Source: Candidatus Dormiibacterota bacterium
Lineage (GTDB): Bacteria; Chloroflexota; Dormibacteria; Aeolococcales; Aeolococcaceae
Assembly: GCA_003153505.1 (NCBI GenBank)
Contig: PLZA01000044.1
Span: 124,001-188,000 of the forward strand
Length of the DNA stretch: 64,000 nt
Direction: 5' to 3'
Part shown: in pieces, positions 13,434 to 57,822 of the stretch
How the letters are laid out: the number at the start of each line of letters is the position of its first letter
How positions within the stretch are numbered: position 1 is the first letter of the stretch
The notes under the pieces: generated by a model
Database searches by the model: none
Told to the model about the DNA's origin: nothing
The model's input: the letters and a program-made list of their open reading frames with translations, nothing else
Program-made: the position numbers and the translations under genes

Positions 13434-13467
13434 AGCGTACTGGCAAAGCGCTCACAGATCGCTTACA
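13434..13467 (-). promoter_or_regulatory. Tandem-repeat promoter A (relaxase)
   Basis: On the minus strand TGTAAGCG-ATC-TGTGAGCG (13467-13449) is followed, 17 bp after the second repeat starts, by TACGCT (13439-13434). The relaxase GTG lies at offset 42 from the first repeat base, 7 bp past the hexamer. The same layout recurs at 16052-16085, 35493-35526 and 56362-56396. Confidence 0.75.
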
Positions 13468-13560
13468 CTTTCGGTCGAAAACGGGGTCAAAACCGCAGGT
13501 GAAAGTGTGTGTGAGATATAGGCGTGGGGCAGTGCTGCAGGGATGAGGAGGGCGGAGATG

Positions 13561-16796: not shown

Positions 16797-16847
16797 CTCG
16801 GGTCTCCTTCGTGCGGTTGATGCATGCAAGCTCTCGGCCCGGACGCC

Positions 16848-16899
16848 GCTGCGCTGTCAGGGGCGCGGTTCGTGCGTCAGCTCGAACCCGGTGCGCAGC
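16848..16899 (-). promoter_or_regulatory. Leader hairpin before the zinc-ribbon gene
   Basis: GCTGCGC (16848-16854) pairs with GCGCAGC (16893-16899), and GGTTCG (16867-16872) pairs with CGAACC (16883-16888) inside it, 52-103 nt upstream of ATG 16796. The ribosome-binding context GCATCAACCGCACGAAGGAG resembles those of SSB and ParB. Confidence 0.55.
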
Positions 16900-17045
16900 A
16901 CGTCACCCTTGACAGAAGGAGCAGCGGCGGGAGGGACCCTGCTGCATGCGTCGGCCGGGCGGAGGAGCCGCGACGCGATCGCGTGGCCGAGCGCGCGCTG
17001 CCCGCGAGCGTGCTGGCGTCTCGCCACGACGCGCAGGCCGGCGCC

Positions 17046-17501
17046 TCACTCCCACCCCTCCTCAGAACGGAAGGAGAAGTGCTCGGTGTCGGTCACGATA
17101 ATGTGATCCAACAGCGGGAGGCCGACGATCTGCGCAGCATTGCGCAGCGCCGCGGTGACGACGCGATCCGCACGCGACGGTGTTGCGTCGGCAGATGGAT
17201 GGTTGTGGCAGACGATCAATCCCGCAGCGTTCGCGCAGAGTGCCGGCACGAGCACGTCGCGGGGTTGCAGGCGGGCCGCATTGATCGTGCCTCGCGCCAC
17301 CTCGGCGTAGCCGCTGATGCGATTCCGGGCGTTGATGAAGAGCACCAGGATGCACTCGGTGATCTCCTCACCGATGATGTGCCGGGCGATGTCGACAGCC
17401 TCACGCGGACTGTTGACCGGCGCGTGGTTGGGATACGTCGGATCAGCGTCGCGGACGACCGAGAACGAGTAGCGGCGGGTGGTGACGCGAACTGCGGGCA
17501 T
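17046..17501 (-). CDS. RadC-like JAMM/MPN metalloprotease-fold protein
   Basis: The product is 151 residues from ATG 17501 (GGAGAG 5 nt upstream); an open extension to 17645 has no site. It has the RadC/JAB fold. SPREAVDIARHIIGEE precedes the core strand ECILVLFINARNRI, then GTINAARLQPRDVLVPAL and the metal motif HNHPSADATPSRAD (His99, His101, Asp112). The helix-hairpin-helix domain of chromosomal RadC is absent, as in the short versions encoded by plasmids, phages and islands. The biochemical role of such proteins is unsettled. It is one of five minus-strand genes with the shared hairpin leader. Confidence 0.85.
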   Translation of the reverse strand: MPAVRVTTRRYSFSVVRDADPTYPNHAPVNSPREAVDIARHIIGEEITECILVLFINARNRISGYAEVARGTINAARLQPRDVLVPALCANAAGLIVCHNHPSADATPSRADRVVTAALRNAAQIVGLPLLDHIIVTDTEHFSFRSEEGWE

Positions 17502-17564
17502 GGTGGCTCTCCGTTGCTGTGGATTCAACGCCCACGGGCCGGCAGGTGTCGCCGGCGCGGAAGA

Positions 17565-17596
17565 GGCCCGAGCCGCAGGCGAGCTCGTCTTGGGCC
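17565..17596 (-). promoter_or_regulatory. Leader hairpin before the JAMM gene
   Basis: GGCCC (17565-17569) pairs with GGGCC (17592-17596), with an inner GAG/CTC, 64-95 nt upstream of ATG 17501. The loop-side word GCCGCAGGCGA plus CTCGTCTTGGG is shared with the SSB leader. The rest of the 315-base gap to ardC holds no supported gene. Confidence 0.6.
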
Positions 17597-17816
17597 TTGC
17601 AGCGCCAAGAGGCGGCATCTGCCACGGTGGCGGAGGTGAATCCACACCGAGAGTCCACGCATATCGGTTCGCGGCTCCGACCAGCGATTGCGGAAGGTCG
17701 GTCGCATATCAGGCCCCGCGCGCACGAGCGACGTCGATCCACCCAATCCAGGTCGTGCCGACATCGGACCGTGTCGGCTGTTGCCCCGACAACTCGACGC
17801 ATCCGAACGTGCGGTG

Positions 17817-18683
17817 TCAGCCGGTCGCGCGAGCGGCGTCTTGCGGCGCCCCGCTATCACCGTCGGCGAGCCGTTCGAGCAGGCGCTTGCTCACGCGCTG
17901 GATGCGCTGCGCTGAATCCCTGATCCCGGCGATGGCCGCATCACCACCGCTGGCCCATGAGGCCACGTAGGCGAACGAGTACCCGTCTGAAACAATGCCG
18001 ACTGCGTCGCAGCAGATCCACGCAACGGATTCCGCCTCAAGCTCGGCGACGCTGCGCGCACCGAACGCGCAGCCGCCGTGTTCGAGTGCGATGTGCGCCA
18101 GCTCGTGGAACATGGTCTTCACGCGATGCGCGGGTGAAAGATCATGTCGAATCGTCACCGTCCGCGTCGCGAAGTTCGTCTCTCCGCACTTGCTCGGGGA
18201 ATCGAAGGAGTCGAGAGCAACCTGGTAGCCGAGCTCCCGCGCTTGATCGCAGAGCGTGTCGAAGCACCCGGCGGGGTCGTCGCCCAATACGCGAGCGATC
18301 GGCAACTCAGGCAGAGGTTCCCCGTCCGTCTGCTCGAGCGCGAACACGACGGCAACGCGAAAGCTGCGCACGGTGTCGACAAGGTCGGAACCGTCGTTGT
18401 CGTTGTCTCCGTCACGTGCCGTGCGATACCGGCAAGGCGCGAGAATGCGGATGCCGGTCTCGCCCTGGCGCACCTGGCGGCCCAACTCGAGCCAGCGCCG
18501 GTATCCCGCAACCAGTGATGCATCCGGCCGCTGCCAGGCGATGAGCAGTGTGTTGCCGAAGCTGTACCGGTGGAAGCGACTCTGGAGGCGCATCCAGCCG
18601 ATCCATGCCTCGGACGTGGTGAGCCGGCGGATGCCCTCGGTGAGCTGGCTGAGCAGATCGTCGCGGGTCACCGCGGCGTTCAC
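17817..18683 (-). CDS. ardC: ArdC-type antirestriction protein (ssDNA-binding plus zinc metallopeptidase-like)
   Basis: A 288-residue protein with the two ArdC parts. The N-terminal DUF1738-like ssDNA-binding domain (about 1-125; WIGWMRLQSRFHRYSFGNTLLIA, GYRRWLELGRQVRQGETGIRIL) is followed by a zincin domain with H-E-L-A-H (His193, Glu194, His197) and a later AELEAESVAW segment that can supply the third ligand. ArdC proteins protect incoming plasmid DNA from type I restriction. GTG 18683 overlaps the TGA of the preceding small gene (GTGA), so the two are co-translated. An acidic insertion DGDNDNDGSD near residue 91 is unusual. The element also carries its own type I system at 49-56 kb. Confidence 0.85.
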   Translation of the reverse strand: MNAAVTRDDLLSQLTEGIRRLTTSEAWIGWMRLQSRFHRYSFGNTLLIAWQRPDASLVAGYRRWLELGRQVRQGETGIRILAPCRYRTARDGDNDNDGSDLVDTVRSFRVAVVFALEQTDGEPLPELPIARVLGDDPAGCFDTLCDQARELGYQVALDSFDSPSKCGETNFATRTVTIRHDLSPAHRVKTMFHELAHIALEHGGCAFGARSVAELEAESVAWICCDAVGIVSDGYSFAYVASWASGGDAAIAGIRDSAQRIQRVSKRLLERLADGDSGAPQDAARATG

Positions 18684-18925
18684 AGGAGTCCGCTCCCGTA
18701 GTTGACCGACTGGTCCTCAGGGGCGGAGCCGTAGTCGGCGGCGAATCGAGCGATGCTCTCCGGCTCGGTCGAATGACGGCTGTCGTGAGGCAGGCTGAGG
18801 AGACCGTCGAGCTCGTGACGCCCGTGCATCCGCTCGACCCGTCCGGGGTGGTCGGCGAGGTCTTGCAGGCGCGCCTGGATGGCCGCGATCTCCGACGGGC
18901 TGCGGGGAGTACGTGTTGTCGCCAT
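18680..18925 (-). CDS. Small hypothetical protein coupled to ardC
   Basis: The 81-residue product starts at ATG 18925 with GGAGG 8 nt upstream. It begins with a basic MATTRTPRSPSEIAAIQARLQ helix and ends RFAADYGSAPEDQSVNYGSG. No family is recognised. Its stop overlaps the ardC GTG, and it carries the shared hairpin leader, so it is a genuine element gene; a regulatory or antirestriction accessory role is only suggested by position. Confidence 0.6.
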   Translation of the reverse strand: MATTRTPRSPSEIAAIQARLQDLADHPGRVERMHGRHELDGLLSLPHDSRHSTEPESIARFAADYGSAPEDQSVNYGSGLL

Positions 18926-18994
18926 GGGATGACCTCCGTGCGGGGCCGGCCTGTCCGACCCTCGAGGGCCTCCCAGGACCACCGCCGCCGGCCG

Positions 18995-19034
18995 GCGTCA
19001 AGGGCGCCCGTGGCGGCGAAGCCTCCCTTGACGC
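18995..19034 (-). promoter_or_regulatory. Leader hairpin before the ardC operon
   Basis: GCGTCAAGGG (18995-19004) and CCCTTGACGC (19025-19034) form a perfect 10-bp stem with a 20-nt loop, 70-109 nt upstream of ATG 18925. Position and size match the leader hairpins of the SSB, ParB, JAMM and zinc-ribbon genes while the stem sequence is unrelated. Confidence 0.6.
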
Positions 19035-19928
19035 GATGAGGACGGCGGCTGTGGTGGGATGGCTCCATCGAGGGCGATCTGTGCCGGCTCGCCGTGGGTC
19101 TTTCGTGGTCGAGCCATCTGCGTGCAACGACGGTGGTCGAGCGTCAGAAGTGCTTCCTGGACCCGGGTTGCGCGTCACCCGCAACCTAGGTCGCGACAAA
19201 CGAATTTCGTCACGCGGGCACTCGGCCGAGGGCCACTGCGAGTTCGGGATTTGATTCCGAGCTTTGAAAAGATTCGGTAGAGGTGCGTACTAATCGACCA
19301 GATACTTTGAAACGGCTGCGGTGCCGTGACGTCGTTCGCGTCGGTTGACGACGTTGCAGCTTGCCGTCGACAAAGTGCTCGCGGGCGAGTAACAACGTGG
19401 GCTGACACTCGAACCCTTGTTGGCGTGCCAGTTGGTGCACAGCCGGGTCACCAGTTTGAACGCGTGGGAGAGCGCCTTCTCGCGCAACGCGCATGCGCTC
19501 GGTGGAGCTTCGAAGGCGCCAGCGCGCGCGGCCCCCAGTGACCGCAGCCTCCGGCGCCGGAGCGTCGCGCTCCAGCTCGGCCAGCACGCTGCGGTCGGCC
19601 TCGCCAAGCTTTGCTGGCTCAGGCGATCCCAGGCCTCGGCGATCACCGCTCCATCGCGTCGCGCGAGACGGTGAATCCGCAACTGTCTGATCCGCACGTC
19701 GATCAACTGCTGCATCGTCGCCGCCGACCTTGCGTAGGAGCTCTCCGTCGCCAGCCAAAGCGTCGCAGGGGCGATGCCCAGGCTGAAGTGCTCGCCGGCG
19801 TCGAGACCCAACCGCAAGCACTGACGGAGTGGCAGAAAGCGTGATCGAGCTTGCCAGCACAACGTACCCCGGGGTTCAACCAGCGTCACTGGACGGAGGT
19901 GCAGGCGGACCGCGAGGGCATAGAGATA
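19035..19928. other. No supported gene; upstream region and uncharacterised DNA
   Basis: About 890 bases. Near 19108 the word GAGCCATCTG recurs near 31258 upstream of SSB, which may mark a shared promoter. Overlapping open frames at 19210-19889 (minus) give Arg/Ser/Ala-rich translations without ribosome sites or family features. They could be a decayed gene, but nothing is recognised. Confidence 0.35.
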
Positions 19929-19957
19929 TTGTGGTCCCTACGCCATTTGGATATACT
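19929..19957 (+). promoter_or_regulatory. Sigma-70-type promoter of the propeller gene
   Basis: TTGTGG (19929-19934), a 17-bp spacer and TATACT (19952-19957) precede the gene. An AGGAGG ribosome site lies at 19964-19969 before ATG 19978, giving a very short leader. Confidence 0.65.
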
Positions 19958-19977
19958 CATGAGAGGAGGGTGTAAAC

Positions 19978-21084
19978 ATGGGACCGATCGACCGACCCAT
20001 CGCAAAGGCGTGGCGCGGATGCGCACGACTGGTCACGGCGACCAGCATGTTCGTAATTCTCGGCTTCGCGCCTGCCGCTTCAGCCTCCGCGGCAGCCGTT
20101 TCGTGGCACGTTGTCCCGAGTCCCACGACGGCGAACGACGTCACATGCGTGGCGGCCAATGACTGCTGGGCCGTCGGGTCGTCGATCATGCACAACGTTG
20201 GGGCCGGCTGGGTCACGGTCAGCAGTCCCACCCCAACTGGCTCAATCAATAGCCACCTTGATGGCGTGACCTGTGTGAGCAACACGGACTGTTGGGCTGC
20301 GGGTGGCTATCTGGCCCCTCCTTTCAATGAGCTGACCTTGGTCGAGCACTACGACGGTGTGAATTGGAGCATCGTCAGTAGCCCATCACCTGACCCGAAT
20401 AACAGCCAATTCCTCAACATTAGGTGCACCAACGCAACAAATTGTTGGGCGGTGGGGATGACCGTCACCAGCGCCGGAGACGAGTATCCCCTCATCGAGC
20501 AATACACCCAAAGCAGCTGGGTTGTCGCCAGTAACCCGAGCGGCACCAATCGCGGGGCGTTGCGAGATGTCGCCTGTTTGAATGCAACTGGCGTCTGTTG
20601 GGCTGTCGGCTGGCTCGACAACCCGGCGAATCAGCCCTTGGTTGAGTACAACCCGGGTACGGGGTGGGTCGTGATCCCCAGCCCTGCGGCTTCCACTGGC
20701 CAGTTGTACGGTGTGACGTGCATGAGCGCCACTAATTGTTGGGCGGTGGGCTCGTTTGACAGCTCAGCTCGCAGCACCACTTCGACGTTCACCGAGCGCT
20801 ACGACGGAAGTCGTTGGAGCATCGTCCCAAGCCCGAATGTCGGCAGTCGCCATCCGAACTGGCTCAACGACGTGAGCTGTACCTCTGCCTCTGACTGTTG
20901 GGCGGTCGGAAGCGACGGAATCTCCGACCAGAAGACGCTGATCGAGCACTTTGCCGGCGGTCGGTGGCGAACAGTTGCGAGCCCAACGGGAGCGTCGAGT
21001 GGGAGCCTCGTTGGCATCAAGTGCGTTGCCAGATTTGATTGCTGGGCTGTGGGCGACGATAATCCCATCCTGCAGTACACTTAG
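19978..21084 (+). CDS. Secreted seven-repeat CWAVG beta-propeller-like protein
   Basis: A 368-residue exported protein. The N-terminus has basic residues, then a hydrophobic segment (VTATSMFVILGFAPAASASAAA) that fits a cleavable signal peptide. The mature chain consists of about seven repeats of roughly 45-50 residues. Each carries a Cys-x5-Cys-Trp-Ala-Val/Ala-Gly core (NDCWAVG, TDCWAAG, TNCWAVG, GVCWAVG, TNCWAVG, SDCWAVG, FDCWAVG) and a W-x-V/I-V-x-SP strand. Paired cysteines within each repeat suggest disulfides outside the cell. Seven equal repeats suggest a seven-bladed propeller. Function unknown; similar proteins are usually annotated only as hypothetical in high-GC soil bacteria. It is cargo beside an IS481 copy. 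Confidence 0.8.
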   Translation: MGPIDRPIAKAWRGCARLVTATSMFVILGFAPAASASAAAVSWHVVPSPTTANDVTCVAANDCWAVGSSIMHNVGAGWVTVSSPTPTGSINSHLDGVTCVSNTDCWAAGGYLAPPFNELTLVEHYDGVNWSIVSSPSPDPNNSQFLNIRCTNATNCWAVGMTVTSAGDEYPLIEQYTQSSWVVASNPSGTNRGALRDVACLNATGVCWAVGWLDNPANQPLVEYNPGTGWVVIPSPAASTGQLYGVTCMSATNCWAVGSFDSSARSTTSTFTERYDGSRWSIVPSPNVGSRHPNWLNDVSCTSASDCWAVGSDGISDQKTLIEHFAGGRWRTVASPTGASSGSLVGIKCVARFDCWAVGDDNPILQYT

Positions 21085-21182
21085 CAGGGAGCTGAACCGC
21101 GGGCCGCGATGAGCGCTTGGGTGGGCGTTGGCCCGCTCGCATGGTTGTGGTGTCGGCGATCGCGGACAGAATTCGGACCTGT

Positions 21183-22252
21183 GGCCCCCTAGGTGTAAGC
21201 GTTCGCGAGGTTGGTAACACTCACGCCGCCTGCAGTTGAGCGAGACGGGTCCACGGGCTGAGTCCTCCCAGGGCTCGGTGAGGCCGGTGCTGGTTGTACC
21301 ACTGGAGGAAGTGAGCGAGGCCGTCACGGCGTTGCTCGGAGCTGTGGAAGACCTCGAGATAGAGGCACTCGCTGAGCACAGTGCGGATCCAGCGCTCCGC
21401 CTTGCCATTGGTCTGCGGGTGGTACGGCCGGGTGAAGCGGTGTCGGAGTCCGACGACACGGCACACCCTGCGCCACGCTTTGGAGCGGTACGGGCTGCCA
21501 TTGTCGGTGAGCAGGCGGTCCACGGTCATGCCCTGCTCACGAAACCAGCGCACCGCGCGAATTAGGAAGTGGGCCGCGGTCCGGCCCCGCTCGTCGCTGA
21601 GCATCTCCGCATACACCAGCCGGCTGCACTCGTCGATCGCCATGTGGAGCACTTCCCAGCCCACGTGCCGGTGCCGTTGCCCCTGGTCGCCGTGGATGCG
21701 ATGCCCAGGCCCACCAACGATCCGGCCGAGCTTCTTGGTGTCGCAGTGCACCATCGCGCCTGGGGTGTCGAACTCGTAGCGAATCACCGGCGGCCGTTCC
21801 GCTTTGTCGCGCCGCAGTCCCTGGCGCCGAATCACCCGGTGCACTGTGGCCGCAGGCACGCCGCACAGCACGGCCAGGCGGTCGGGCCCCCACCCGGTCT
21901 GTCGGCGCAGCGCCGCGATCGCCGCCTCCTGAACCAGTGACAGCCGCTGGGGCGAGCTCCGTGGCCGGCTGCTGCGATCGTGCAGCCCGAGCTTGCCCTG
22001 AGCGTCCCAGCGCGGTCGCCAGCGGTAGTACCAGCGCCGCGACACCCGAAAGGCGAGACACGCGGCCGAGACCGTCATGCCCGCTTCGACCGCCGCAAAG
22101 ACCTGCGCTCGCCCGCCTGTTGTCAGCCGTGCATTGGGGTGAGAATGCATCCCAGAGCCCTCCTCGGTTGGGTTGGTGTTAGCAACCTCACCTTGCCGAG
22201 TTCAGGGCTCCTTTTGTGTCACCAACCTCGCGAGAGATCTCACCTAGGGGCC
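21183..22252 (-). mobile_element. IS481-family insertion sequence with terminal inverted repeats
   Basis: A transposase gene is bracketed by inverted repeats of about 38 bp. The left end begins GGCCCCCTAGGTG (from 21183) and the right end, read inward, CGGCCCCTAGGTG (from about 22252). Both continue to TCGCGAGGTTGGT and end before the gene. The flanks do not show an obvious target duplication. Confidence 0.8.
21221..22150 (-). CDS. IS481-family transposase (DDE integrase fold)
   Basis: The 309-residue transposase has a helix-turn-helix N-terminus (GGRAQVFAAVEAGMTVSAACLAFRVSRRWYYRW, with a second wHTH around residues 60-110) and an rve integrase core. Catalytic acids are visible at MVHCDTKKLG (first Asp), LLTDNGSPYRS (second Asp) and HPQTNGKAERWIR (Glu). 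This order matches IS481 elements, which lack the orfA of IS3. It is intact and flanked by matching terminal repeats, so it is potentially active. Confidence 0.93.
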   Translation of the reverse strand: MHSHPNARLTTGGRAQVFAAVEAGMTVSAACLAFRVSRRWYYRWRPRWDAQGKLGLHDRSSRPRSSPQRLSLVQEAAIAALRRQTGWGPDRLAVLCGVPAATVHRVIRRQGLRRDKAERPPVIRYEFDTPGAMVHCDTKKLGRIVGGPGHRIHGDQGQRHRHVGWEVLHMAIDECSRLVYAEMLSDERGRTAAHFLIRAVRWFREQGMTVDRLLTDNGSPYRSKAWRRVCRVVGLRHRFTRPYHPQTNGKAERWIRTVLSECLYLEVFHSSEQRRDGLAHFLQWYNQHRPHRALGGLSPWTRLAQLQAA

Positions 22253-22572
22253 GGTCCTCGGGGCATGTTCCCCATTTTCACGCCCCGGTTTGGCCAGCAG
22301 TTTCGACATTCGCACACGTAATACATCGTGACCGCGAGCGCCGCCCAGGGTTGATGGCGGTCAACCCCGATGCATCAGAGTTTGGCCCTCCGCGGCGGGG
22401 GTACCTCGGTACTGCGACCTTCGTGGCCCGGTAGCTGTTGATAACGCCTCCGTGTCGTAGGCCGCGTCCGCGGACACAGTTCGCCGGCGGCTTGCACCTT
22501 GGCGATGCAGCATGCGCAGTGTAATGTCCCGCTCCGCGCGACCGTCTGGCGGCGCGACCTGCACATCGACGA

Positions 22573-22929
22573 CTAGGCTTCGCCGGTGGGCACGGCACGG
22601 GCCGCGGCCTCGGCGTCGATGAGGTCCGACTTTCCCCGGTTGCGACGGTGCTGGCGTGACGGCGGCGACACCTCGACCACCCGCACACCTCGCGCTTGCA
22701 GCAGCGCGCAGAGGGCGCTGCCGTACGAACCGGTGCCTTCCATTGCGACCACGGCCACGCTGCCGTGCTCGAGCGCCCAGGCCACCAAACGCTGGTACCC
22801 GGCTGGTGACGCTGGAATGCTGATGTCGTCGCAGCGGTGACCCAACTGGTGAACTGCGACGGCGACGTGCACGAGATCGTGGGTGCCAACGCCAATGACC
22901 ATCTGCTGTGCCAAGCTCTTTCCAGTCAC
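22573..22929 (-). pseudogene. IS110-family transposase, N-terminal fragment
   Basis: The 118 codons read VIGVGTHDLVHVAVAVHQLG, VVAMEGTGSYGSALCALLQARG and NRGKSDLIDAEAAARAV, the DEDD RuvC-like start of an IS110 transposase. The expected first Asp of the DEDD set is replaced (GVGTHD instead of GxDxxK). The frame ends where the full protein should continue for about 280 residues. Downstream DNA to 22253 shows only scattered frames, so this is a truncated, inactive copy unrelated in sequence to the intact one at 28.9-30.2 kb. Confidence 0.75.
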
Positions 22930-23151
22930 CGGTTCCTCCGAATGGGTGGCGACGTCGCCAGCGGCCGGGCAGACCTGTGACGGGGACGTCAGGGGTCAAG
23001 CTCATATCAAGTCACGGCCCGTTTGGCGGCGCCCCGTGGCCAGAACCCTCGCTCGTGGACACATCCCGGGAAAGGCACCTCCGGCGCCAGGCGGTTCACG
23101 AGTCACACGAGCGAGGGCGGGACTCCCATATCCTCACAGGCGGTTCACGGT

Positions 23152-25485
23152 CTAGGGACAGGTTACCGAAGTGAAGTTGTTGAGCGCGATCACTTGGGCC
23201 AACGTGAGGGTGCTATATCCGGGGTGGGCGTCGTCGGCCGAGAAACCGGACGGGAGTTCGACGTGCAGGGCAAAGTAGCCCCCGCTAGCCGTCGACTCGG
23301 CGTTCTCGATTACTTGGCAAAGCGTCCCAGTCCCGGTCGAGGAGAAGTGCGAGGATGTGTCTGTCGCAGTCTGGTAGGCCAGAGGAATGCCGGCTGTGAC
23401 GAAGTTATCTCCTGTGCCCACGCTTCCGTTGTACATCTCTTGGTCCTCGACTGACAGGCTGCCGCTCAGCGAGTTGTTCTCGATGCTTTGCGAAGCGCTG
23501 TAGTTGCGGATCTGTTGTATGGCTTCCGCCGTATCAGTTGGGCTAGCGCAACCGCTATCACTCGAGTCGAGGCAGATGCTGTGGTCGTCTGAGTCGGGTC
23601 CGCCAGTGTCCGGGGCAAGGACCTGATCGTAAGGGTTAAAGGTGGAGCCGACCGGTGTCAGTTTCCAGACGGTGGGAATCCACTCAGCGTCGGCTATCGT
23701 CGCCGCGACATCGCTCGAGGCGCTCCAGCACTGCGATGAGCACGAGCCTCCGTTTGCCGTAGTCATATTGAGGCGGAGGCCGCAGACCGTGGACGGAGGA
23801 CCTATCGAGTACGCGGCCAGCCCCGAGGGCTCAGAGGGAGACCAGGTGCCGGTTAGAGTGTTGGAAGTGTTGGAGGTGACGGTGAAATCGTACGTCACGG
23901 GCCAGGTGGCGCTTCCGGCCGTCGCCACGTAGTTCGCCCATTGATTGGTCGCCCAGGACTTGCTGGTGTCCTGGATTGTGGTCGAGCCGAGAGTGACCGT
24001 TCCACCGCTGCCTGAGTCGTAAGTGCAGGCCAGCCCTCCCGCGGACTCGGGTGCGTCGTTGACCTGACGTAGGTACGGCTCATCGTAGATCGTGGCGTTA
24101 CGGGACGCAACTATCTCACCGATCTCGGGCGCCGTGTCGTACTTGGAGGCAAGCCTCGTCATGAGGTCCTGCCAGTCGGTATTGAAGGCACTCTTCCAGA
24201 ACTGCGGGCAGTTTCCAGCCTCGCCGTTCTGGTCGATGTCGCGGCAGGGGAAAGTCGTCCCGGCAGCATATGCGGGCGTGTCGATGCCAGCCATTACGCG
24301 AACCTTGAGTACCTGCTTGATGCCCCCAGCCGGGCAGTTGGTTGCCAGATTTGTGTTCCACCCAGTGGTGGGATCATTGAGTTCCTTGATCGCAGTGTCG
24401 ATCGGGTTGTTGCTCGTTATGGTGCCGCCGAAGCTGGTCAGGAGCTCGTTCCAGCCAACGCCGTTGGCAAGTCGATCGTTGCCCTGCACCACGTAGCCAG
24501 CCATCGCGCATCGGATGGCGTTCGCCCCGTTGGCACCGCAGCTTGTGGAGCAGGACGGAAAGTTCGCCCCGTTTCGATTTAACAACCCGCGGATGAAACC
24601 CTTGGTCGCGGATCCGCTCCCGGCGAAGAAGACGGTGATGCCAATCTCGATCTTGCTTACATTGAAGGTCGGGGTTTCTGAGTCGATCGAAGAAGTCGAC
24701 GGGTTCAGGTGATAATCCCCCCCTCCGTGCAGCTTGGTGTTGGAACCATACCAACTTCCCTGGGTGAAGCTCCCGCTCTTGGTTTCGGTAACGGCTGCGG
24801 CCGTAGCGTCGTATTCGGTAAGGGCGGTGACAGTTATGCCACCCGAGCTCGCCGGGTTGACCCCAGTTGCGCCACTGCACGAGGTTTCCAGAGGCGCGGT
24901 GGACGGCGACATGCCACACCACGCGCCGGGAACAATCTGGACGCTGCTGTAACCGTTGCTCTGACCTTGCCCAACGACGCTGACCTGGGGAGGGTTGTCG
25001 AGAGCCACTCCCGAGAACTCTTCAACCGAGGCGACCATTGCTGTCGCGCTGCTGTTCGTAACTGTTGCTACGGCGTCGTTACCAACTGTCACCATGAACC
25101 AGACTTCGGCTTCGACCAAATCGCTACCCGTTTGGTAACCGGTTCCGAAGTACCACCAACACCCCGGCACCGGACCGGTCCGAACCGAGCACAAACTGGT
25201 GGACCAGTTCGCGTTGCCACCGCCAAAGCTGCTGACTCGAAGCACGAGGAGGTCGTTGGCTGGGACCTTACCGCTCACCAGCTCGTCTGAATGAAGTGCC
25301 GGTGTGATCGAGCCGCTGCCAGCGCTACCAGTCCATGTGTATTCGGTTGGCTGCGACGCGGAGACCTTGGCGATACTGGCAGCCTGAGCTTCGATCGGCT
25401 TCAGTGGTGCCTCTGGCACGATGACCATCCCGATGGTCAGTGCCAAGAGGGCCGCTAGAACGAATGGGACCTTGCGATTTATCAT
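23152..25485 (-). CDS. Large secreted protein, N-terminal beta domain and possible glycoside-hydrolase-like core
   Basis: The 777-residue product starts at ATG 25485 (GAGGTGAGC upstream) rather than at 25638, because a signal peptide begins there: INRKVPFVLAALLALTIGMVIV then a cleavage region near EAQAAS. Residues about 40-200 form a beta-sandwich-like part (TYTWTGSAGSGS, AVWFMVTVGND, ASVEEFSGVALDNPP). The middle part (ATKGFIRGLLNR, VRVMAGIDTPAYAAGTTF, FWKSAFNTDWQDLMTRLASKYD) resembles TIM-barrel glycosidases by layout only. The catalytic acids cannot be fixed by eye. Several Cys pairs support an extracellular location. It follows a frameshifted secreted gene on the same strand. Confidence 0.7.
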   Translation of the reverse strand: MINRKVPFVLAALLALTIGMVIVPEAPLKPIEAQAASIAKVSASQPTEYTWTGSAGSGSITPALHSDELVSGKVPANDLLVLRVSSFGGGNANWSTSLCSVRTGPVPGCWWYFGTGYQTGSDLVEAEVWFMVTVGNDAVATVTNSSATAMVASVEEFSGVALDNPPQVSVVGQGQSNGYSSVQIVPGAWCGMSPSTAPLETSCSGATGVNPASSGGITVTALTEYDATAAAVTETKSGSFTQGSWYGSNTKLHGGGDYHLNPSTSSIDSETPTFNVSKIEIGITVFFAGSGSATKGFIRGLLNRNGANFPSCSTSCGANGANAIRCAMAGYVVQGNDRLANGVGWNELLTSFGGTITSNNPIDTAIKELNDPTTGWNTNLATNCPAGGIKQVLKVRVMAGIDTPAYAAGTTFPCRDIDQNGEAGNCPQFWKSAFNTDWQDLMTRLASKYDTAPEIGEIVASRNATIYDEPYLRQVNDAPESAGGLACTYDSGSGGTVTLGSTTIQDTSKSWATNQWANYVATAGSATWPVTYDFTVTSNTSNTLTGTWSPSEPSGLAAYSIGPPSTVCGLRLNMTTANGGSCSSQCWSASSDVAATIADAEWIPTVWKLTPVGSTFNPYDQVLAPDTGGPDSDDHSICLDSSDSGCASPTDTAEAIQQIRNYSASQSIENNSLSGSLSVEDQEMYNGSVGTGDNFVTAGIPLAYQTATDTSSHFSSTGTGTLCQVIENAESTASGGYFALHVELPSGFSADDAHPGYSTLTLAQVIALNNFTSVTCP

Positions 25486-27014
25486 GTGCTCACCTCTGAA
25501 CAACCTTGTGGTCGGCAACCGGCGAGGTATGCCCTCGTGTGTGCGACGGACTGCGAAAAGCGCTTTCTCATCGTCGTGACGAAAAATGCGGACATGCGTA
25601 TCAACGTGCGGTTCCACCTCCTGCTCCAACCGGCCCAAGCGAGTGGTCCGATTCCACTTATTCGCGGGTTGTTAGACCTAGGCTGGTCAACGAGGTCTCT
25701 TCGGTGTACGCGGGCGCAACCACCCTGCCCGCCGTCATCGACCCACTCGACAACGCCGTACCCGCGCGCCACTCCAGGGGTGACCGTGTAAGTCTTGGTC
25801 GCGTTCATGAACACAGGAAGCTGCAGGTGCGCTGCGTCGGGCGTGGGACCGACCTGGCGGGACGCCGTCTCGGCGACGATGTAGTCGCCCGCCGCGTCGC
25901 AGGTCTGGCCGCTGACGGTGACGCAGATCCCGAAGTCGATCGGATCGATTCCCGATGCCATCGCCAAGGTCAGGTTGGCGGTCACGTACGTCAGCACGTT
26001 GACGGATGGGGTGAAACTCTGAGTCTCCGAGCCGATGGTCTGCCATGCGGTCCCGTCATCACCAGTCCCAAACGCGCGCGTTTGCACAGCGCTGGCGGCG
26101 GTACTCAGGAGTTCGCCGTCCGCGGTCGGTGTCATTTGCGCAATCACGCTCGTCAAGGAGTACCCGCCTTCCGTGCCACCGCTCGCTCCCGCGTCGATCG
26201 TGTGCGCACTCTCGGCCTGCCAGAAGATTCCCATCGTGTAGGTCGTGCTCGGGGTAAGGGTTGCCGTCGCCTCGACTAACGCGGCGATTGGCATCGCTAA
26301 GGCGGCCGCTCCACTCGTCTGCGCTGCAATGATGCTCTCGCCCGTCCTCGTGCAGGTGGCACTGAGCACGCTCGCGGCCGCTAAGCAGATGCCCATGTCG
26401 GCGTTTGCTTGGGGGGACACCGAGTACAGGTCGGCGCTCGCGGTCAGCAGGGTGCTGTGGTTGCCACTTCCCGCCGGCGTCGTGAAGCTCTTCTCAACCG
26501 TGCTATCCATCACGTGCCACGAGGTGCTGTTCGTCGAGAATTGCGTCGTGCCTGTGGAGGGCTGCGCGGCCACGAGGTTGTCCGCTGTTGGCGTAAGCAG
26601 GGCATTGAGCGTGGTCGGCGAGAAACCTGGACCATACGGTGGCACCGGATCTCCAGCCTCAAGGAACACGCCCGCTGGCTCGGCCGTCGCCGGTCGCCAC
26701 ATCAGCTCGAGCGTGTACGTCTGTCCCGCATTCATCGTCATGGCGTTTTGGACGTATACCGGATCCGGTGAACTGCCGCTGTACTCGCCCCCGTCCTTCC
26801 ACGCGACCACCATGCCGCCGACTGCGATGCCCACTTCCGTATTGAGTGTCGTTGAGCTCTCGACGTCAGCGAAGGCGGTGAGGACAGCTGTCGAAGTGAC
26901 AGACGGAGTCACCGAGAGCACGCGTTTGCTGGGATCCATCGCCTTCCACGGCGGAGGATCGTAGCGGTCGTATCCCCCTCCAAGCGATACATCTGCTTGC
27001 TGGAGGCGTTCCAA
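25482..27014 (-). CDS. Secreted repeat protein with two apparent frameshifts
   Basis: The open frame holds three copies of a domain of about 150 residues, each with a T-W/SW-x-x-M/I start and TxSxxVLTxxADL strands (PPWKAMDPSKRVL, TSWHVMDSTVEKSF, TAWQTIGSETQSF). The expected signal peptide is in another frame: ATG 27193 begins NGQSTRSNHRGVARRH, then LAVLVALASSLSGVFLF and a cleavage region AHADTAQ. A one-base shift between about 26.95 and 27.01 kb would join it. Near 25.73 kb the frame turns into an Arg-rich, unrelated tail to 25482, while shifting one base restores a plausible domain end and a TAA at 25658-25660. It is either a pseudogene or carries two sequencing errors. Confidence 0.65.
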   Translation of the reverse strand: MERLQQADVSLGGGYDRYDPPPWKAMDPSKRVLSVTPSVTSTAVLTAFADVESSTTLNTEVGIAVGGMVVAWKDGGEYSGSSPDPVYVQNAMTMNAGQTYTLELMWRPATAEPAGVFLEAGDPVPPYGPGFSPTTLNALLTPTADNLVAAQPSTGTTQFSTNSTSWHVMDSTVEKSFTTPAGSGNHSTLLTASADLYSVSPQANADMGICLAAASVLSATCTRTGESIIAAQTSGAAALAMPIAALVEATATLTPSTTYTMGIFWQAESAHTIDAGASGGTEGGYSLTSVIAQMTPTADGELLSTAASAVQTRAFGTGDDGTAWQTIGSETQSFTPSVNVLTYVTANLTLAMASGIDPIDFGICVTVSGQTCDAAGDYIVAETASRQVGPTPDAAHLQLPVFMNATKTYTVTPGVARGYGVVEWVDDGGQGGCARVHRRDLVDQPRSNNPRISGIGPLAWAGWSRRWNRTLIRMSAFFVTTMRKRFSQSVAHTRAYLAGCRPQGCSEVST

Positions 27015-27193
27015 CTCGTGCGTTGCGCCGTGTCCGCATGTGCGACGAGTGCGGGACTGAACAGGAACACGCCACTGAGTGAGGAGGCGAGCGCTACCAA
27101 GACCGCTAGCGGTCGCCGTCCCTGCAGGAATCGCGCGGATGCGTGACGCCGAGCAACACCACGATGGTTTGACCGGGTGCTCTGCCCGTTCAT

Positions 27194-27595
27194 TACAGCT
27201 GCGCAGTCAGATTGACGATGGACGCAGACACAGAGACAGCCCTCCCAGTAGCCAAGGCTCCAATGCAGCACTCCGTCGCAACGGAGTTTCAGTGCCGTCA
27301 TGCTAGGCACGCAAACGCCTGGTATGTGGTGATGGTGTAACAAGCGCTGCTGCACCTAAAGCAGGCTCGGCCAGTGCGACAGGGGAGCAGATGCTCGTGC
27401 ACTTCGCATCGATGCAAGCGGCTCAAATTACCGTGGGTTGACTGCCGGTGGTTCCCGCCGTGCATTCGACGCTGGCCAACATGCGAACGTGAGCGGGTCG
27501 ATCAGCCGATCTCCGCATCGTGTAGCGAACCGTGCGATCGCGTGGCGTTCCTCGGACGACTCATCATCATCCATTCCATTCGTGTGGAGGTGTAG
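27194..27595. other. Divergent intergenic region
   Basis: About 400 bases between the two divergent exported-protein genes. It presumably holds their promoters, but no clear -35/-10 pair or repeat was found. Confidence 0.3.
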
Positions 27596-28273
27596 ATGAC
27601 CCGTGTTTCCGATTCGACGCCCAGAGCTGTGCGTCGCGCGACCACGCGCCTACCTTTCCATCGAACGCCTGCGAGGGCGCTCGTAGACCTCACATGTATC
27701 CTGCTCCTCCCCTTGGTGCTCGCCGGCTGCGCGAGGAGCGGTTCGCACGCCAACCTAAGCCGGCCGAGCAGTTCGCTGTTCATATCGACCCCATTACCGG
27801 ACCCGACGCCGACCCCAGTGGCGGCGCACACCGTCCCGGTACCAACGTGCTGCACGGCTTCAACCCCGACGAGCTGGAGCACACCGACGCTCATTGCCAA
27901 TGGTATCTACGGCGCCGCCGATCCCACCAACAGATTGGCGGCGACCTGGCAGGTGATCGGTTCGGCACGGAGTTGCCCGCTGGAGCCGGCCGCAATGCTC
28001 GGAAGCCTCGTTTCTCCAACCCAGCTCTCCGGCGATGTCATCACTGCCGTTGATGCGATCACCGTGAACGGCAAGCATGCCACCGTCTACGTGACCGTCC
28101 CCAGCACCGGGGTACCGCGCGGCTATCAGTATCTGAACGCCGACGTGGTTGTCGGAACCATGTGCGTCGATCTCGGCGGCGCGGAATACGGGGTTGCGAA
28201 TGCCTCGAATGTGCATGCGCTGCTCCAGATCCTCGCCACTACGCGTCCCGTCACGTCCCCGGAGCGTCCGTAA
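27596..28273 (+). CDS. Putative lipoprotein of unknown function
   Basis: A 225-residue exported protein. A long basic N-terminus precedes a hydrophobic segment LTCILLLPLVLAGC with a perfect lipobox ending at a cysteine near residue 46. A Pro/Ser/Thr linker follows (PLPDPTPTPVAAHTVPVP). The folded part is about 130 residues (TWQVIGSARSCPLEP, DVITAVDAITVNGKHATVYVTVPS, VVVGTMCVDLGGAEYGV). ATG 27596 has GGAGG 7 nt upstream. No family is recognised. It stands alone between a frameshifted secreted gene and a dead oxidoreductase. Confidence 0.72.
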   Translation: MTRVSDSTPRAVRRATTRLPFHRTPARALVDLTCILLLPLVLAGCARSGSHANLSRPSSSLFISTPLPDPTPTPVAAHTVPVPTCCTASTPTSWSTPTLIANGIYGAADPTNRLAATWQVIGSARSCPLEPAAMLGSLVSPTQLSGDVITAVDAITVNGKHATVYVTVPSTGVPRGYQYLNADVVVGTMCVDLGGAEYGVANASNVHALLQILATTRPVTSPERP

Positions 28274-28320
28274 AACTTCGACGCTGCTCGGCTCACACGG
28301 TTACGCCTCCACAGCTGATC

Positions 28321-28682
28321 GACGTCGATGTCAGCTGGAAGAGAACCGAGGTTGCGTGTTTCGACCGCGTTGTACTCGGCAAGGGAGCCGTTGCGAGTCC
28401 AGGGAGTCATGCCGAACACGCGCTGACCGACGGTCAGGCCGGTGGTTCCGTGCCCCAGTTCGACGACGACTCCCGACAGCTCGTGGCCAGGCAGGCTCGG
28501 CGTCCGGTCGTGGCCATCCCGGTCGGTCCACGTCGACGGCCACTCCAGCTCGCCTGGGGTGAACCCCGCGGCATGCACCCGCACGATGACGTCGTTCTGA
28601 GTGGCGTCGGGGTAGAGATTTCCGTCAAAGAGTGTCCGCCGACACCCGCGGCGCGATCTCGAAGGGTGATGGCTTGCGTGAC
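28321..28682 (-). pseudogene. NAD(P)-dependent alcohol dehydrogenase/quinone oxidoreductase remnant
   Basis: The N-terminal GroES-like domain of a medium-chain oxidoreductase is readable: QAITLRDRAAGVGGHSLTEIS in one frame, then after a one-base shift near 28.61 kb DVIVRVHAAGFTPGELEWPS, RTPSLPGHELSGVVVELG and LTVGQRVFGMTPW. It stops at LPADIDVDQL near 28321, where the Rossmann domain should follow but unrelated DNA begins. A frameshift plus truncation mark it as dead, probably cut by IS activity. Confidence 0.75.
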
Positions 28683-28936
28683 ACCTCCTTCGGCGTCGGG
28701 ATTGTTGAAGCTTGCCGGCGGGATCGAGGCCGAGATCGGGTGATTATCCGGTCGCCTCATGCCTCCGCGCAATTTTCCATTCCGGCCTGACCACCGATTG
28801 TGATCCCGCGTTAGACAGGAGACTGGCGACGAGTGGACATGCGTTCACTTGCGACTGAACTCTCGGCGCTCAGTTGCGAACCCGCGCACTTGGTCGGCCG
28901 ACCAGGATTTCGCCCGGGCGTTTCGCTGAGGATGTA

Positions 28937-30160
28937 TTAGATCCCATAAGTTCTTGTCAAGCTGATCCGGCCGCTGCCATGCGCCGGGTCGAAATCCTTG
29001 CCGCCGCGCCACACGCCCCAGACGATGGCCAGTGCTTTGCTCATGTAGTGACCAAGGGCGTTCATCGCTGACTTGCCCGCGGCCCGCTTGCGAGCGTAGT
29101 GGGCGCGGAGGATCGGGTTGTGCTGCACGCCGACCACGGCCATCCGGTATGCGGCCGCGCGAAGGTAGGCGTTGCCGGTCTTGGCCATGGTCCAACTCGT
29201 CTCCGGGTTCGCACCTTTCTTCCCTGAGCTCTGCTCCTTGGGATGCACCCCCGCGTAGGCGAGTAACTGGTCGACATCGGTGAAGCGCCAGATGTCACCG
29301 ATCTCGGCCATGAGCGTGGCCGCGGTGGAGGGACCCACCCCGGGGATGGAGAGCAGCCGCTGCGACACTTCGCCATCGAGCAGGGAGGCGATCCGGGTGT
29401 CAGCGCTGGCGATCTGCTGGTCGAGCAGGTCGTGCTGGGCGATCAGCAGGCGCATCTCGAACCCCACTTGCTGCTCGAGTTCCGGCGCCGCCACCGAGGT
29501 CTGAGCCAGCTGCTTGAGCTGGCCGGCCTTGAGCGGTCCGATCGCACGGCCACCACTGCCCGGACGCTTGAGCCGACCCAGGCGGTCCTGGTGCATGCGC
29601 GCCACTGCTGCTGCGGTCGGCGCGTGGCGAAGCACCGCCAGGGCGCTGACGCAGGTGGGGTCGTCCCAGACGTCGCGCAGCTCGGGAAAGCCGATGTCCA
29701 CCAACCGCTGAATGCGCTGGCAGACCTGTGCCTGCTCACGCACCAGGCGCATCGCAAACCGCGCCGCCTCCTTGAGCTCGGCCCCCACCAGGGGCTCGCT
29801 GATCCGCGGCTGGTCGTGCGTTCCCAACGCCGCCAGTGTGCGCGCGTCAGCCGGGTCGCTCTTGCTCCGCTGCAGCCGGCTCTTGGCGAAGTACTTGGCC
29901 TGCAACGGATTCACCACCGCCACCGGATACCCCTGCCGGCGCAGATGACTGGCCAGATTGAACCAGTAATGGCCGCTCGACTCCATCACCACCACGTCGA
30001 TCGGCGCTCCCTGCTGCACCATCCACGCGTCTAGTGCAGCGAAGCCGCCGCGCTGGGTCGTGATGTTGAGCACCTTCCGCTCCGCCTCGCGCTCACCCTG
30101 GCGACACACCGCCGCCGCGCACTTGTATGCCCCTACGTCGATTCCCACCGCCAGACTCAT
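28937..30160 (-). CDS. IS110-family transposase, full length
   Basis: The 407-residue DEDD transposase starts at ATG 30160 (GGAGGTGCGT upstream). The RuvC-like domain has GIDVGAYK, VVVMESSGHYWFNLASHL and KSDPADARTLAAL. A coiled middle region and a C-terminal Transposase_20 domain follow (LLSIPGVGPSTAATLMAEIGDIWRF, LAYAGVHPKEQSSGKKG). IS110 elements encode a bridge RNA next to the transposase that guides recombination between target and donor. The flanks on both sides (28773-28936 and 30161-30300) could hold it but were not resolved. No terminal inverted repeat is expected for this family. Confidence 0.93.
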   Translation of the reverse strand: MSLAVGIDVGAYKCAAAVCRQGEREAERKVLNITTQRGGFAALDAWMVQQGAPIDVVVMESSGHYWFNLASHLRRQGYPVAVVNPLQAKYFAKSRLQRSKSDPADARTLAALGTHDQPRISEPLVGAELKEAARFAMRLVREQAQVCQRIQRLVDIGFPELRDVWDDPTCVSALAVLRHAPTAAAVARMHQDRLGRLKRPGSGGRAIGPLKAGQLKQLAQTSVAAPELEQQVGFEMRLLIAQHDLLDQQIASADTRIASLLDGEVSQRLLSIPGVGPSTAATLMAEIGDIWRFTDVDQLLAYAGVHPKEQSSGKKGANPETSWTMAKTGNAYLRAAAYRMAVVGVQHNPILRAHYARKRAAGKSAMNALGHYMSKALAIVWGVWRGGKDFDPAHGSGRISLTRTYGI

Positions 30161-30645
30161 ACGCACCTCCTGTGTCGGGTTGCGACCTCAGGGGTCCTCG
30201 CCTCGCTTCGCCACCGCGTGGGCTGATGCTCCATCACCGGTCATGCCGTCGGATCCCAATCACCGCTCGAAGACGAAGCACGAGGGCCGGTCACTAATAC
30301 CATCGGTCGCGGCCGGATAGCGAAGCGCCGGTCTCCCCGTCAAGGTCAGTTTCCGTGCGATTCTGACCCCGCCAGGAGATATATCAGCGATATACGAGGT
30401 TGTCGAGGTTGGTGTCCCGCGGTGCCCCAGAGCAGAACGCCATGGTCGTCGGTCCACACATGACGGCGGAATGGTGGGCGGCACGACGAGGTCACGCTCG
30501 CGCGGCCGAGGTCGGCGGGCTTCAGAACGTACTGCGCAGCCAGGGAGCTGAGCGCGTTTATGTGACCGACAGCCACTTTTCGCGCGCGGCACTCGAGGCC
30601 GACAGGGTATGAGGAACGGGGCCGGTCTCCCGGCCCCATTCTCAG
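30161..30645. other. IS110 flank and intergenic region before SSB
   Basis: About 485 bases. The part next to the transposase start may hold the IS110 noncoding (bridge RNA) region. Open frames at 30346-30639 (minus) and 30400-30612 (plus) have no ribosome site or recognisable content. Confidence 0.3.
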
Positions 30646-31038
30646 CTAGGCCTCGGCCTCGCCGGTGGGTGCGGGTCCGAGCAACTGGAAGCTCTCGACC
30701 ACGAGGTCGAGCTGCTTGACGCGGTGCCCCTCAACGTCGCGGATCCTCGAGGTGATGCGCCCCTCGACGTGAATCTCGCGACCCTTGCGGCCGTACTGGC
30801 CGATGATCTCGGCGGCCTTCTCCCACGCCACCACATCGTGGAACTCGGCGAAGCCGTTGACGTTGGTGGCGATGCCCAGGTTGACGACGGCCTTGCCGCT
30901 CTGGGTAAACCGCTGCTCCGGGTCGGCCGTCATCCGTCCGAGGATGCGGAAGTGGTTGATCCCGTACGACCGGGACTTCGCCGGGGTGTCGGTGACGTCG
31001 CCGTCGACGTCGGCTGCGAGGTCGGGCTTCCGGGCCAT
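30646..31038 (-). CDS. ssb: Single-stranded DNA-binding protein (element-encoded)
   Basis: A 130-residue SSB with the OB-fold order NHFRILGRMTADPEQRFTQSGKAVVNLGIATN, FHDVVAWEKAAEIIGQYGRKGREIHVEGRITS and KQLDLVVESFQLLG. The start ATG 31038 is chosen over an upstream open extension because GGAGGACACATGC precedes it. The C-terminus ends in an acidic GEAEA instead of the DDDIPF tip of housekeeping SSBs, common for plasmid copies. It would coat transferred strands on entry. A hairpin leader and an ATCAACC-CACGGAGG context link its control to ParB, ardC and two other genes. Confidence 0.92.
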   Translation of the reverse strand: MARKPDLAADVDGDVTDTPAKSRSYGINHFRILGRMTADPEQRFTQSGKAVVNLGIATNVNGFAEFHDVVAWEKAAEIIGQYGRKGREIHVEGRITSRIRDVEGHRVKQLDLVVESFQLLGPAPTGEAEA

Positions 31039-31104
31039 GCATGTGTCCTCCGTGAGGTTGATCGCGTGGCTTTCGGGGAGCGGCGCGCACAAGGGCGGAG
31101 CGGA

Positions 31105-31138
31105 AACCCCTCGCCGCAGGCGACTCGTCTTGGGGGTT
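31105..31138 (-). promoter_or_regulatory. Leader hairpin before ssb
   Basis: AACCCC (31105-31110) pairs with GGGGTT (31133-31138); inside, TCGCC-GCA-GGCGA (31111-31123) makes a second perfect stem, 67-100 nt upstream of ATG 31038. It shares CTCGTCTTGGG and the GCCGCAGGCGA word with the JAMM leader, although the outer stem sequence differs. The rest of the 31039-31474 gap holds no gene. Confidence 0.65.
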
Positions 31139-31474
31139 GCAGTGAAGGCCGCGCGGTGCTCGAATGCCATGAGAGCGATCAACAGCTCACCGATAAGGGG
31201 GACACCTCGTGGTCGCGCGGAGGTTCGGCCTCGTGGTCGAGGGCAGCGGGTCGGTTAGAGCCATCTGTGGTACGAACGGCCCGGTGATCTAAATGCCCAA
31301 TGCGGCGAACGGATAAGGATGCGAATGTGCAGCCGCCGTGGGCCGCTGGTGGGGAATGCGCGGGAACGCGAGCATCCGAATGGTTGCAGTGGCTTGTGCG
31401 CTGACGCGAGTGCGGAGCCCTCGCTGAGCGGCGTGGGAGCGGCCACCGCGCGGCAGCCGCCCCCGGGCGGGTGG

Positions 31475-31921
31475 CTACGAAGCGCCCACGCGCTCAATGT
31501 CGGGGTTGGCGTTGGCGTCTTCCTCGCCGACGGTGATGTCCTGCTCACGAATCACGTCGAGCTCCAACTCCGTGGGCTGGTACCCCAGTCCCGTCAGGTA
31601 GCGGAAATGCTCGGCGACGAGTGCGCGCTGGTCGGGCGAGATGTACTCCCGTCCCGAGTAGACCTCGGCGCGCCCCATGGCCACGGCGAGCGCCACCTGA
31701 GCCAGCTCTCCCGGGTTTGCGGCCACTCGAGCGGTGAGCGACCGCGCATGGCCGTGATACCCGTCACTGCCGCCGGTATGGCCGAGCAGCTCGCAGGCCA
31801 CCGATGCAACCGCCTCGTCCACATCGAGCACCGAGATGCGCCGTGCGTGGTGGTTCGCAGCAGCAGTGTCTTCGACGCTCTGCAGGTGCCGCGTGAGCAA
31901 CGCACGGCGTTCTGCGAGCGC
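31475..31921 (-). pseudogene. C-terminal continuation of the ParB-like gene after an in-frame TGA
   Basis: The codons directly after the ParB stop continue in the same frame without interruption to 31475 (ALAERRALLTRHLQSVEDTAAANHH, VLDVDEAVASVACELLGHTGG, QVALAVAMGRAEVYSGREYISPDQR). The helix running up to the stop (AERAAKRSERQAQR) continues smoothly after it. The TGA is therefore most simply a CGA-to-TGA nonsense change in a protein of about 457 residues. An internal TTG (31900) could start a separate 141-residue product, but no ribosome site is seen. Confidence 0.65.
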
Positions 31922-32848
31922 TCACCGCTGCGCCTGACGCTCGCTGCGTTTGGCAGCACGCTCGGCCTTCGCATCGGCGGGGGCCTGGATGCCCGGCACG
32001 ACTCCGACATGACGCTGCACGTCGATGCACACGAAGACGATGTCTCCGGTGTGCTCCTCGATGTATGCCGCGTGGCACGCCTCCCGGGCGTGCTTCGCCT
32101 GCGTGAGTGGGATGCATCCCCAGCCGTTGCCCAGGCGCCGCACTCTCGCGCGCGGCGAGAAGCTCTCGCGCGGACGTTCGATGATGGGAACGCCGCGCTG
32201 CTCGAGCTCCACTCGGCTCGACTCAGTCTTGCGGTCCAGCTCACGCGCGTGCAGCTCGTGCTGCACCGCGGAGGTGAGGCTCGATCCGTCGCGGGTGTTG
32301 TGCAGCGCACGGGTGAGCCTTTCCGGGGTGTCGGCGAGCTGCGTGAGCAACAGCGCCGTCTGGTAGTCGATCGCCCCGCCGGCAAGTTCGCGACGCACCT
32401 TCCTGGGGAGGCTCAGCAGGGACGTGTGGTCGCTGACCTGTTGTGCCGACGTCCCGGCGAGGGCGGCAACCTCTTCACTCGCGATGCCGAGATCGAGCAG
32501 CTCCTGATAGGCGGCGGCGGCCTCAAGCGGCTCCAGATCCTTGCGGTTCAGGTTCTCCATAGCCATCGCCTTGCGACTCTCGACGTCGGCGTAGCCGCGC
32601 ACCACCGCCGGGACGGTGCTCAGTCCGGCGAGTCTCGCGGCGGCGAGGCGTCGCTGCCCGGCGACGAGCTCGTAGCCCCCGGCGTCGCGCTGACGCACGG
32701 TGATTGGCTGCACCAACCCGATGGTGCGGATGGACTCGGCGAGCCCATTGAGATCGCCGAGATCCTGGCGATGGTTACCGGGCGGGATGGTGATGTCGTC
32801 GAGGGACACCTCGATCAGCTCGGCGATCTGGACGTGCGACGCGCTCAT
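31922..32848 (-). CDS. parB: ParB/Spo0J-family protein, truncated by an in-frame TGA
   Basis: The 308-residue product has the ParB N-terminal nuclease-like/CTPase domain (SLDDITIPPGNHRQDLGDLNGLAESIRTIGLVQPITV, GYELVAGQRRLAAARLAGL, ENLNRKDLEPLEAAAAYQELL) and a helix-turn-helix (ASEEVAALAGTSAQQVSDHTSLLSLP). The GERR-type motif is GQRR. Such proteins load on DNA for segregation or act as KorB-like regulators. No ParA gene is adjacent; the only one lies 17 kb away with its own RHH partner, so a regulatory role is as likely. ATG 32848 follows GGAGGAGATGCC. The same frame continues after the TGA to 31475. Confidence 0.85.
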   Translation of the reverse strand: MSASHVQIAELIEVSLDDITIPPGNHRQDLGDLNGLAESIRTIGLVQPITVRQRDAGGYELVAGQRRLAAARLAGLSTVPAVVRGYADVESRKAMAMENLNRKDLEPLEAAAAYQELLDLGIASEEVAALAGTSAQQVSDHTSLLSLPRKVRRELAGGAIDYQTALLLTQLADTPERLTRALHNTRDGSSLTSAVQHELHARELDRKTESSRVELEQRGVPIIERPRESFSPRARVRRLGNGWGCIPLTQAKHAREACHAAYIEEHTGDIVFVCIDVQRHVGVVPGIQAPADAKAERAAKRSERQAQR

Positions 32849-32904
32849 GGCATCTCCTCCGGTGGGGTTGATCCGACGCCCACCCGCAAGGCGCGCCGCG
32901 AGCG

Positions 32905-32950
32905 CGCGGCAAGGCCGAGCCGCAGGCGAGCATCAGGCAGCCTTGCCGCG
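32905..32950 (-). promoter_or_regulatory. Leader hairpin before parB
   Basis: CGCGGCAAGGC (32905-32915) pairs perfectly over 11 bp with GCCTTGCCGCG (32940-32950), 57-102 nt upstream of ATG 32848. The loop carries GAGCCGCAGGCGAG, the word also found in the JAMM leader. The following ribosome context is ATCAACCCCACCGGAGGAG. Confidence 0.65.
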
Positions 32951-57801: not shown

Positions 57802-57822
57802 TCGATAGGGGGAAAGAAGGGG

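Follow-up and report, generated by a model that had tools for sequence, protein, structure and literature searches.

Promoters that act on single-stranded DNA are known mainly from enterobacterial plasmids, and elsewhere they have been found through sequence similarity or through −35 and −10 boxes. In mycobacteriophages, start-associated sequences form a repeated context at gene starts and have inverted repeats upstream. In the Frpo (ssi) elements of the plasmids F and ColIb-P9, which encode a MOBF relaxase, a long imperfect hairpin precedes leading-region genes, ssb among them, and the T-strand is the template of these genes, whose transcription runs toward oriT (PMC9849209, PMC11541004). In the pLS20 family, the branched EGeRS1 regions of 400-600 bp are conserved inverted-repeat regions found upstream of several establishment operons, including that of ardC, and there the T-strand is the non-template strand (PMC8708921).

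The locus compared with these systems here lies in a window of 64,000 nt, the whole stretch of DNA that was analysed (PLZA01000044.1, positions 124,001-188,000, assembly GCA_003153505.1), from an uncultured soil bacterium of Candidatus Dormibacterota. Between 10 and 36 kb, its minus strand carries a conjugative module with genes for a TrwC relaxase, ParA, a zinc-ribbon protein, RadC, ArdC together with a short preceding gene, SSB and ParB. Type IV secretion (T4SS) genes, encoding a VirB4/TraC-like ATPase and an M23 peptidase, come next, on the plus strand. The named relatives are Candidatus Dormibacterota assembled from metagenomes, with the isolate names palsa, fen and antarctic. The genes relevant to the analysis are as follows:

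10484 to 13426, minus strand: TrwC/MOBF relaxase-helicase gene (Pfam TrwC, 1.5e-69)
16587 to 16796, minus strand: small cysteine-containing (zinc-ribbon-like) gene, 69 aa (translation; conserved in sister elements)
17046 to 17501, minus strand: gene for a RadC-type JAB/JAMM protein (Pfam RadC, 3.5e-35, scanned as the longer open reading frame 17046-17645)
17817 to 18683, minus strand: gene for an ArdC-type antirestriction protein (ArdcN and M78 peptidase, Pfam)
18680 to 18925, minus strand: ardC-leader gene, 81 aa, directly before and overlapping ardC (conserved in G001 and G003)
30646 to 31038, minus strand: single-stranded DNA-binding protein gene, ssb (Pfam SSB, 2e-20)
31922 to 32848, minus strand: ParB family gene (Pfam ParB_N, 6.6e-19)
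37614 to 40217, plus strand: VirB4/TraC-like type IV secretion ATPase gene (Pfam AAA_10, TraG P-loop)

The 69-aa zinc-ribbon-like product gave no match in the Pfam scan, and the VirB4/TraC-like ATPase has a weaker TraC_F_IV match, below cutoff. All of the genes of leading-region type (ssb, parB, ardC and radC) lie on one strand, the minus strand, and the five hairpin-led genes look like a conjugative leading region, close to the TrwC relaxase gene and a candidate oriT. IS481- and IS110-type transposase genes (21221-22150 and 28937-30160) separate the ardC-leader gene from ssb; in sister contigs, such as L100, these two are near neighbours. At 308 aa, ParB (31922-32848) appears C-terminally shorter than the related open frames of 434-457 aa in sister elements. 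Farther along the window, an HsdR-like restriction gene lies beside two more long genes (49281-55644), and a region with TadE-like and T2SSE ATPase genes occupies 56442-62887.

Folding of the 150-220 nt upstream of each start yields one nested stem per leader, and each leader is a single imperfect stem of roughly 130-180 nt that ends at, or includes, the ribosome-binding site:

16804 to 16967, minus strand: hairpin leader of the zinc-ribbon gene, with CTCCT/AGGAG over the Shine-Dalgarno sequence in its stem (orthologue alignment)
17488 to 17671, minus strand: hairpin leader of radC, whose stem takes in the Shine-Dalgarno sequence and start codon (orthologue alignment)
18945 to 19088, minus strand: hairpin leader of the ardC-leader gene, apical stem CGTCAAGGG/CCCTTGACG (orthologue alignment)
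31054 to 31185, minus strand: hairpin leader of ssb, base stem GTTGATCGC/GCGATCAAC, apex TCGCC-TGC-GGCGA (13 orthologues)
32856 to 33001, minus strand: hairpin leader of parB, whose base stem CCTCCGGTG/CACCGGAGG holds the Shine-Dalgarno sequence (orthologue alignment)

The five inverted repeats reported in an earlier note on this DNA are all present where it placed them, but the short hairpins that it described are the tips of these much longer nested stems. In the consensus structures of the orthologues, the core of each leader has 28-63 Watson-Crick pairs, and few cells fail to pair; for the zinc-ribbon leader, a consensus restricted to Watson-Crick pairs over seven orthologues has 55 pairs and just 4 non-Watson-Crick cells. 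Under a lenient scoring, in which other positions score nearly as high, start codons of these genes (16798, 17500, 18927 and 32850) mark the ends of four of the window's six top-scoring or tied single-stem inverted repeats.

The RadC, parB and ssb leaders are related to one another in sequence, and the loop sequence that three leaders had been said to share is indeed found as the apex GCCGCAGGCGA in these three (17572, 31113 and 32919). A fourth copy, at 16731, lies within the zinc-ribbon coding sequence. This shared apex and the relatedness of the three leaders would fit double-stranded palindromic operators for a plasmid repressor common to the five genes. Such a reading is nonetheless most improbable, as the zinc-ribbon and ardC-leader leaders have no GCCGCAGGCGA motif, the arms are much longer than an operator, and the strand asymmetry described below is unexpected for a duplex site. 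The proposed start context, ATCAACC-N-CAC-N-GGAGG, holds for ssb and parB, is loose in the zinc-ribbon gene, and is absent from radC and the ardC-leader gene. The parallel with mycobacteriophage start-associated sequences, drawn previously for the five leaders, looks weak; the element here is conjugative, its stems are much longer, and the start context is present in some genes only.

The stems were compared with 133 control upstream regions from 360 kb of other DNA of the same genome (contigs C13 and C23), in which genes were called by a crude script. Nesting height, a measure picked only after the leaders had been seen, is 52-59 in the five leaders, against a 99% quantile of 54 in the controls. 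Only 4 of the 133 control regions reach a height of at least 52 (Fisher p 3e-7), as does 1 of the 44 with a GC content of at least 0.66, so that an equal density of such hairpins before unrelated genes, a concern raised in the earlier note, was not seen. Within the module, tall upstream stems precede the five genes and are absent before the ParA, ardC, relaxase and T4SS genes; the region upstream of ardC has a height of 34, and this gene thus has no hairpin of its own. In F, which served as positive control, the known Frpo region upstream of ssb stands out with a nesting height of 64, the 99% quantile of the F background being 42, in a scan that tried more offsets than that of the window. Folding energy was discarded as evidence, since its z values of −0.6 to −2.6 are unexceptional for GC-rich DNA.

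Sister elements of Ca. Dormibacterota have leaders of all five types. Between genera, identity is 81-88% for the ssb leader, compared with 67-71% for the ssb gene itself, and in the next 150 nt upstream it is at the level of shuffled sequence. Among the ssb leaders, both partners have changed in 5 pairs (12 cells), and 97% of cells are paired; none of 500 shuffles matches the observed cell count or covariation score. In the leader of the ardC-leader gene, 3 pairs (7 cells) covary, and in a radC-operon leader from a sister lineage, 3 of 10 apical pairs are doubly changed and none is broken. These figures come from few orthologues, mostly of one genus, and kinship among the sequences inflates the shuffle tests. 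Pairing is thus kept through compensatory changes in the orthologous ssb, ardC-leader and radC-operon leaders, which bears out the suggested selection for structure; both covariation and recurrence in homologous elements, whose absence had been held to count against it, were found.

Single-sequence folds lack the long stem in some orthologues (RadC in L100; RadC and zinc-ribbon in L033), and the parB leaders of G001, G011 and G016 have a different fold and could not be aligned to the others. A class-wide search of 110 genomes gave no match to the ssb leader outside its own family, an exact core pattern gave none among viral contigs, and the ssb leader alone gave none by blastn against 72,556 plasmid records, including the Frpo-bearing F. 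All records returned by a scan of genome contigs for SSB belong to Ca. Dormibacterota, apart from those labelled Ca. Aeolococcus gillhamiae (L127-L129), which are the contigs of G001, a member of the same family. In an element of a sister lineage, a gene of unknown function (L038, 8779-9612) has an upstream stem of height 59, without sequence similarity to the other leaders.

Covariation of this kind could be mimicked by template-switch repair, which would keep the two arms of a quasi-palindrome alike in single-stranded DNA, so that the paired changes would stem from repair rather than from selection and the leaders would have little function. Long imperfect palindromes where DNA becomes single-stranded are in keeping with such a process, as is the 5′ arm of one sister ssb leader (L105, 3565-3775), which has an inverted copy of the gene's own Shine-Dalgarno sequence, start and first codons. 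Yet the loops are conserved like the stems, the leader is conserved above its gene, and the leaders are restricted to particular genes, which makes this explanation very unlikely. The leaders were likewise considered as N-terminal coding extensions; although their frames are open, single-base indels distinguish the orthologues, and the leaders are therefore taken to be non-coding.

No −35/−10 boxes accompany these structures. The dinucleotide TA does not occur in the five 150-nt leaders (0 in 750 nt, where mononucleotide composition predicts 15.8), a value far below that of control upstream regions, and because there is no TA step, a canonical −10 box is absent even in the folded strand. A TTGAC-like apical sequence was dropped as a candidate −35 box, since it varies freely while pairing holds, compensatory changes replacing TTGAC. 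No sigma70-like promoter was found in two scanned stretches, and the tandem-repeat search found no repeats corresponding to the "tandem-repeat promoters" mentioned in the earlier note. The window has no Rfam match at or above the gathering score. The minus strand also has a terminator-like hairpin GAGACCCCTGGCCGCGCCGGGGGTCTC, followed by ACTTTTCC, shortly before the parB leader (33034-33060).

The two strands of the leaders were also compared in their folding. Computation gives the plus strand, the complement of the mRNA, the lower folding energy in 36 of 39 leader sequences, an advantage that is modest in size and partly due to base composition. Regression on G+T content over 122 control upstream regions leaves each of the five leader types with a residual between −1.0 and −5.0 kcal/mol, and the z values of the strand bias against shuffles are −0.25 to −2.1. 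Among non-Watson-Crick events counted on the sense strand, A.C exceeds G.T by 18 to 9 (p 0.06), which corresponds to G.T wobble on the T-strand; in the parB leader, this count runs in the opposite direction. Together, these values provide moderate evidence that the plus strand is the one shaped to fold.

The strand comparison bears directly on the main rival explanation, control at the level of RNA, in which transcription would start at a promoter further upstream and a hairpin in the mRNA would hide the ribosome-binding site until a protein, an RNase or another trigger opens it. The Shine-Dalgarno sequence does lie within the predicted stem, in its base, in the parB, RadC and zinc-ribbon leaders, and can pair in many ssb leaders, while the RadC start codon is itself inside the predicted stem. 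Conversely, the mRNA strand is the poorer folder in all but three of the 39 leaders, G.U is not in excess over A.C in the stems, and neither an Rfam family nor, in the scanned stretches, a promoter-like site was found. RNA-level occlusion as the principal function is accordingly judged unlikely. Of the shared cis-acting element that had been proposed for entry and maintenance genes, the structured leader thus stands, whereas an RNA nature is less favoured, the strand evidence pointing rather to folding of the transferred DNA.

Whether the plus strand is also the transferred one depends on the position and polarity of oriT, for which one candidate is present:

13440 to 13545, plus strand: candidate oriT, with the inverted repeat ACACTTTC/GAAAGTGT and an F-like nic core GCGTGGGGC(A/G)GTGCT at 13522

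The oriT of F and R1 is cut at GCGTGGGGTGT^GGTGCTTT, and its repeat lies on the 5′ side of nic (PMC5422253). The block between the relaxase gene and 13605 is near-invariant in three elements and has an inverted repeat, and by its place and conservation 13440-13545 is a good candidate for oriT. The match to the nic core is modest when taken alone, because GCGTGGGG occurs four times within the window. Since the F-like core is on the plus strand, this strand would enter the recipient first, leading into 13.6-36 kb, and would be the template of the minus-strand genes. The F plasmid has a mirror-image layout, its leading genes being read toward oriT.

If the T-strand is as the candidate nic core suggests, the arrangement resembles that of Frpo in its long imperfect hairpins, its gene set, its MOBF relaxase, the reading of the genes toward oriT and the use of the T-strand as template, and is opposite to that of the otherwise comparable EGeRS1, from which it further differs in that each leader is a single, shorter stem. 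There are also differences from Frpo. The leaders described here are GC-rich, have no −35/−10 boxes, occur one per gene or operon and belong to an uncultured phylum; moreover, they end at the ribosome-binding site, whereas the best-scoring window at ssb of F ends about 120 nt before the start. Because DNA searches with the ssb leader gave no similarity and the boxes are lacking, the leaders were not filed as Frpo. The same strand preference, and the several copies over the leading region, would suit ssi sites, hairpins at which primase or RNA polymerase would mainly prime synthesis of the second strand on the incoming T-strand, gene expression being secondary; transcription and primer synthesis both appear in the title of the Frpo paper (Masai and Arai 1997, cited in PMC11541004). 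However, every copy immediately precedes a gene and has a stem extending to the ribosome-binding site, a feature unnecessary for priming, and no copy precedes the ParA, ardC or T4SS genes. A role mainly in priming is thus distinctly unlikely.

The reading that is narrowly favoured is that the five leaders are single-strand-activated expression elements of the conjugative leading region, working in the manner of Frpo from F. During conjugation, the plus strand would enter the recipient first as single-stranded DNA, from the putative oriT near 13.5 kb, and each leader on the entering strand would fold into a long imperfect hairpin, creating a local duplex. From this duplex, RNA polymerase would transcribe the T-strand in the direction of the gene, giving an early burst of SSB, ParB, ArdC, RadC and the zinc-ribbon protein. 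Once the second strand had been made, the hairpin would be lost and expression would stop. In read-through mRNA from double-stranded DNA, the ribosome-binding site would tend to be hidden, because the second arm of the stem carries it or ends at it. Both transcription from single-stranded DNA and its later shut-off are drawn by analogy with Frpo. That the leaders constitute a separate kind, in which the shape of the hairpin alone starts transcription (or priming) without −35/−10 boxes and burial of the ribosome-binding site silences read-through mRNA, is a tentative and rather doubtful further suggestion.

If this proposal is right, genes on incoming single-stranded DNA would be expressed early in Ca. 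Dormibacterota too, and such expression could rest on structure without the known boxes. Anti-defence genes of leading regions could then be sought more widely, and the comparison of which strand folds could be applied to other elements as well.
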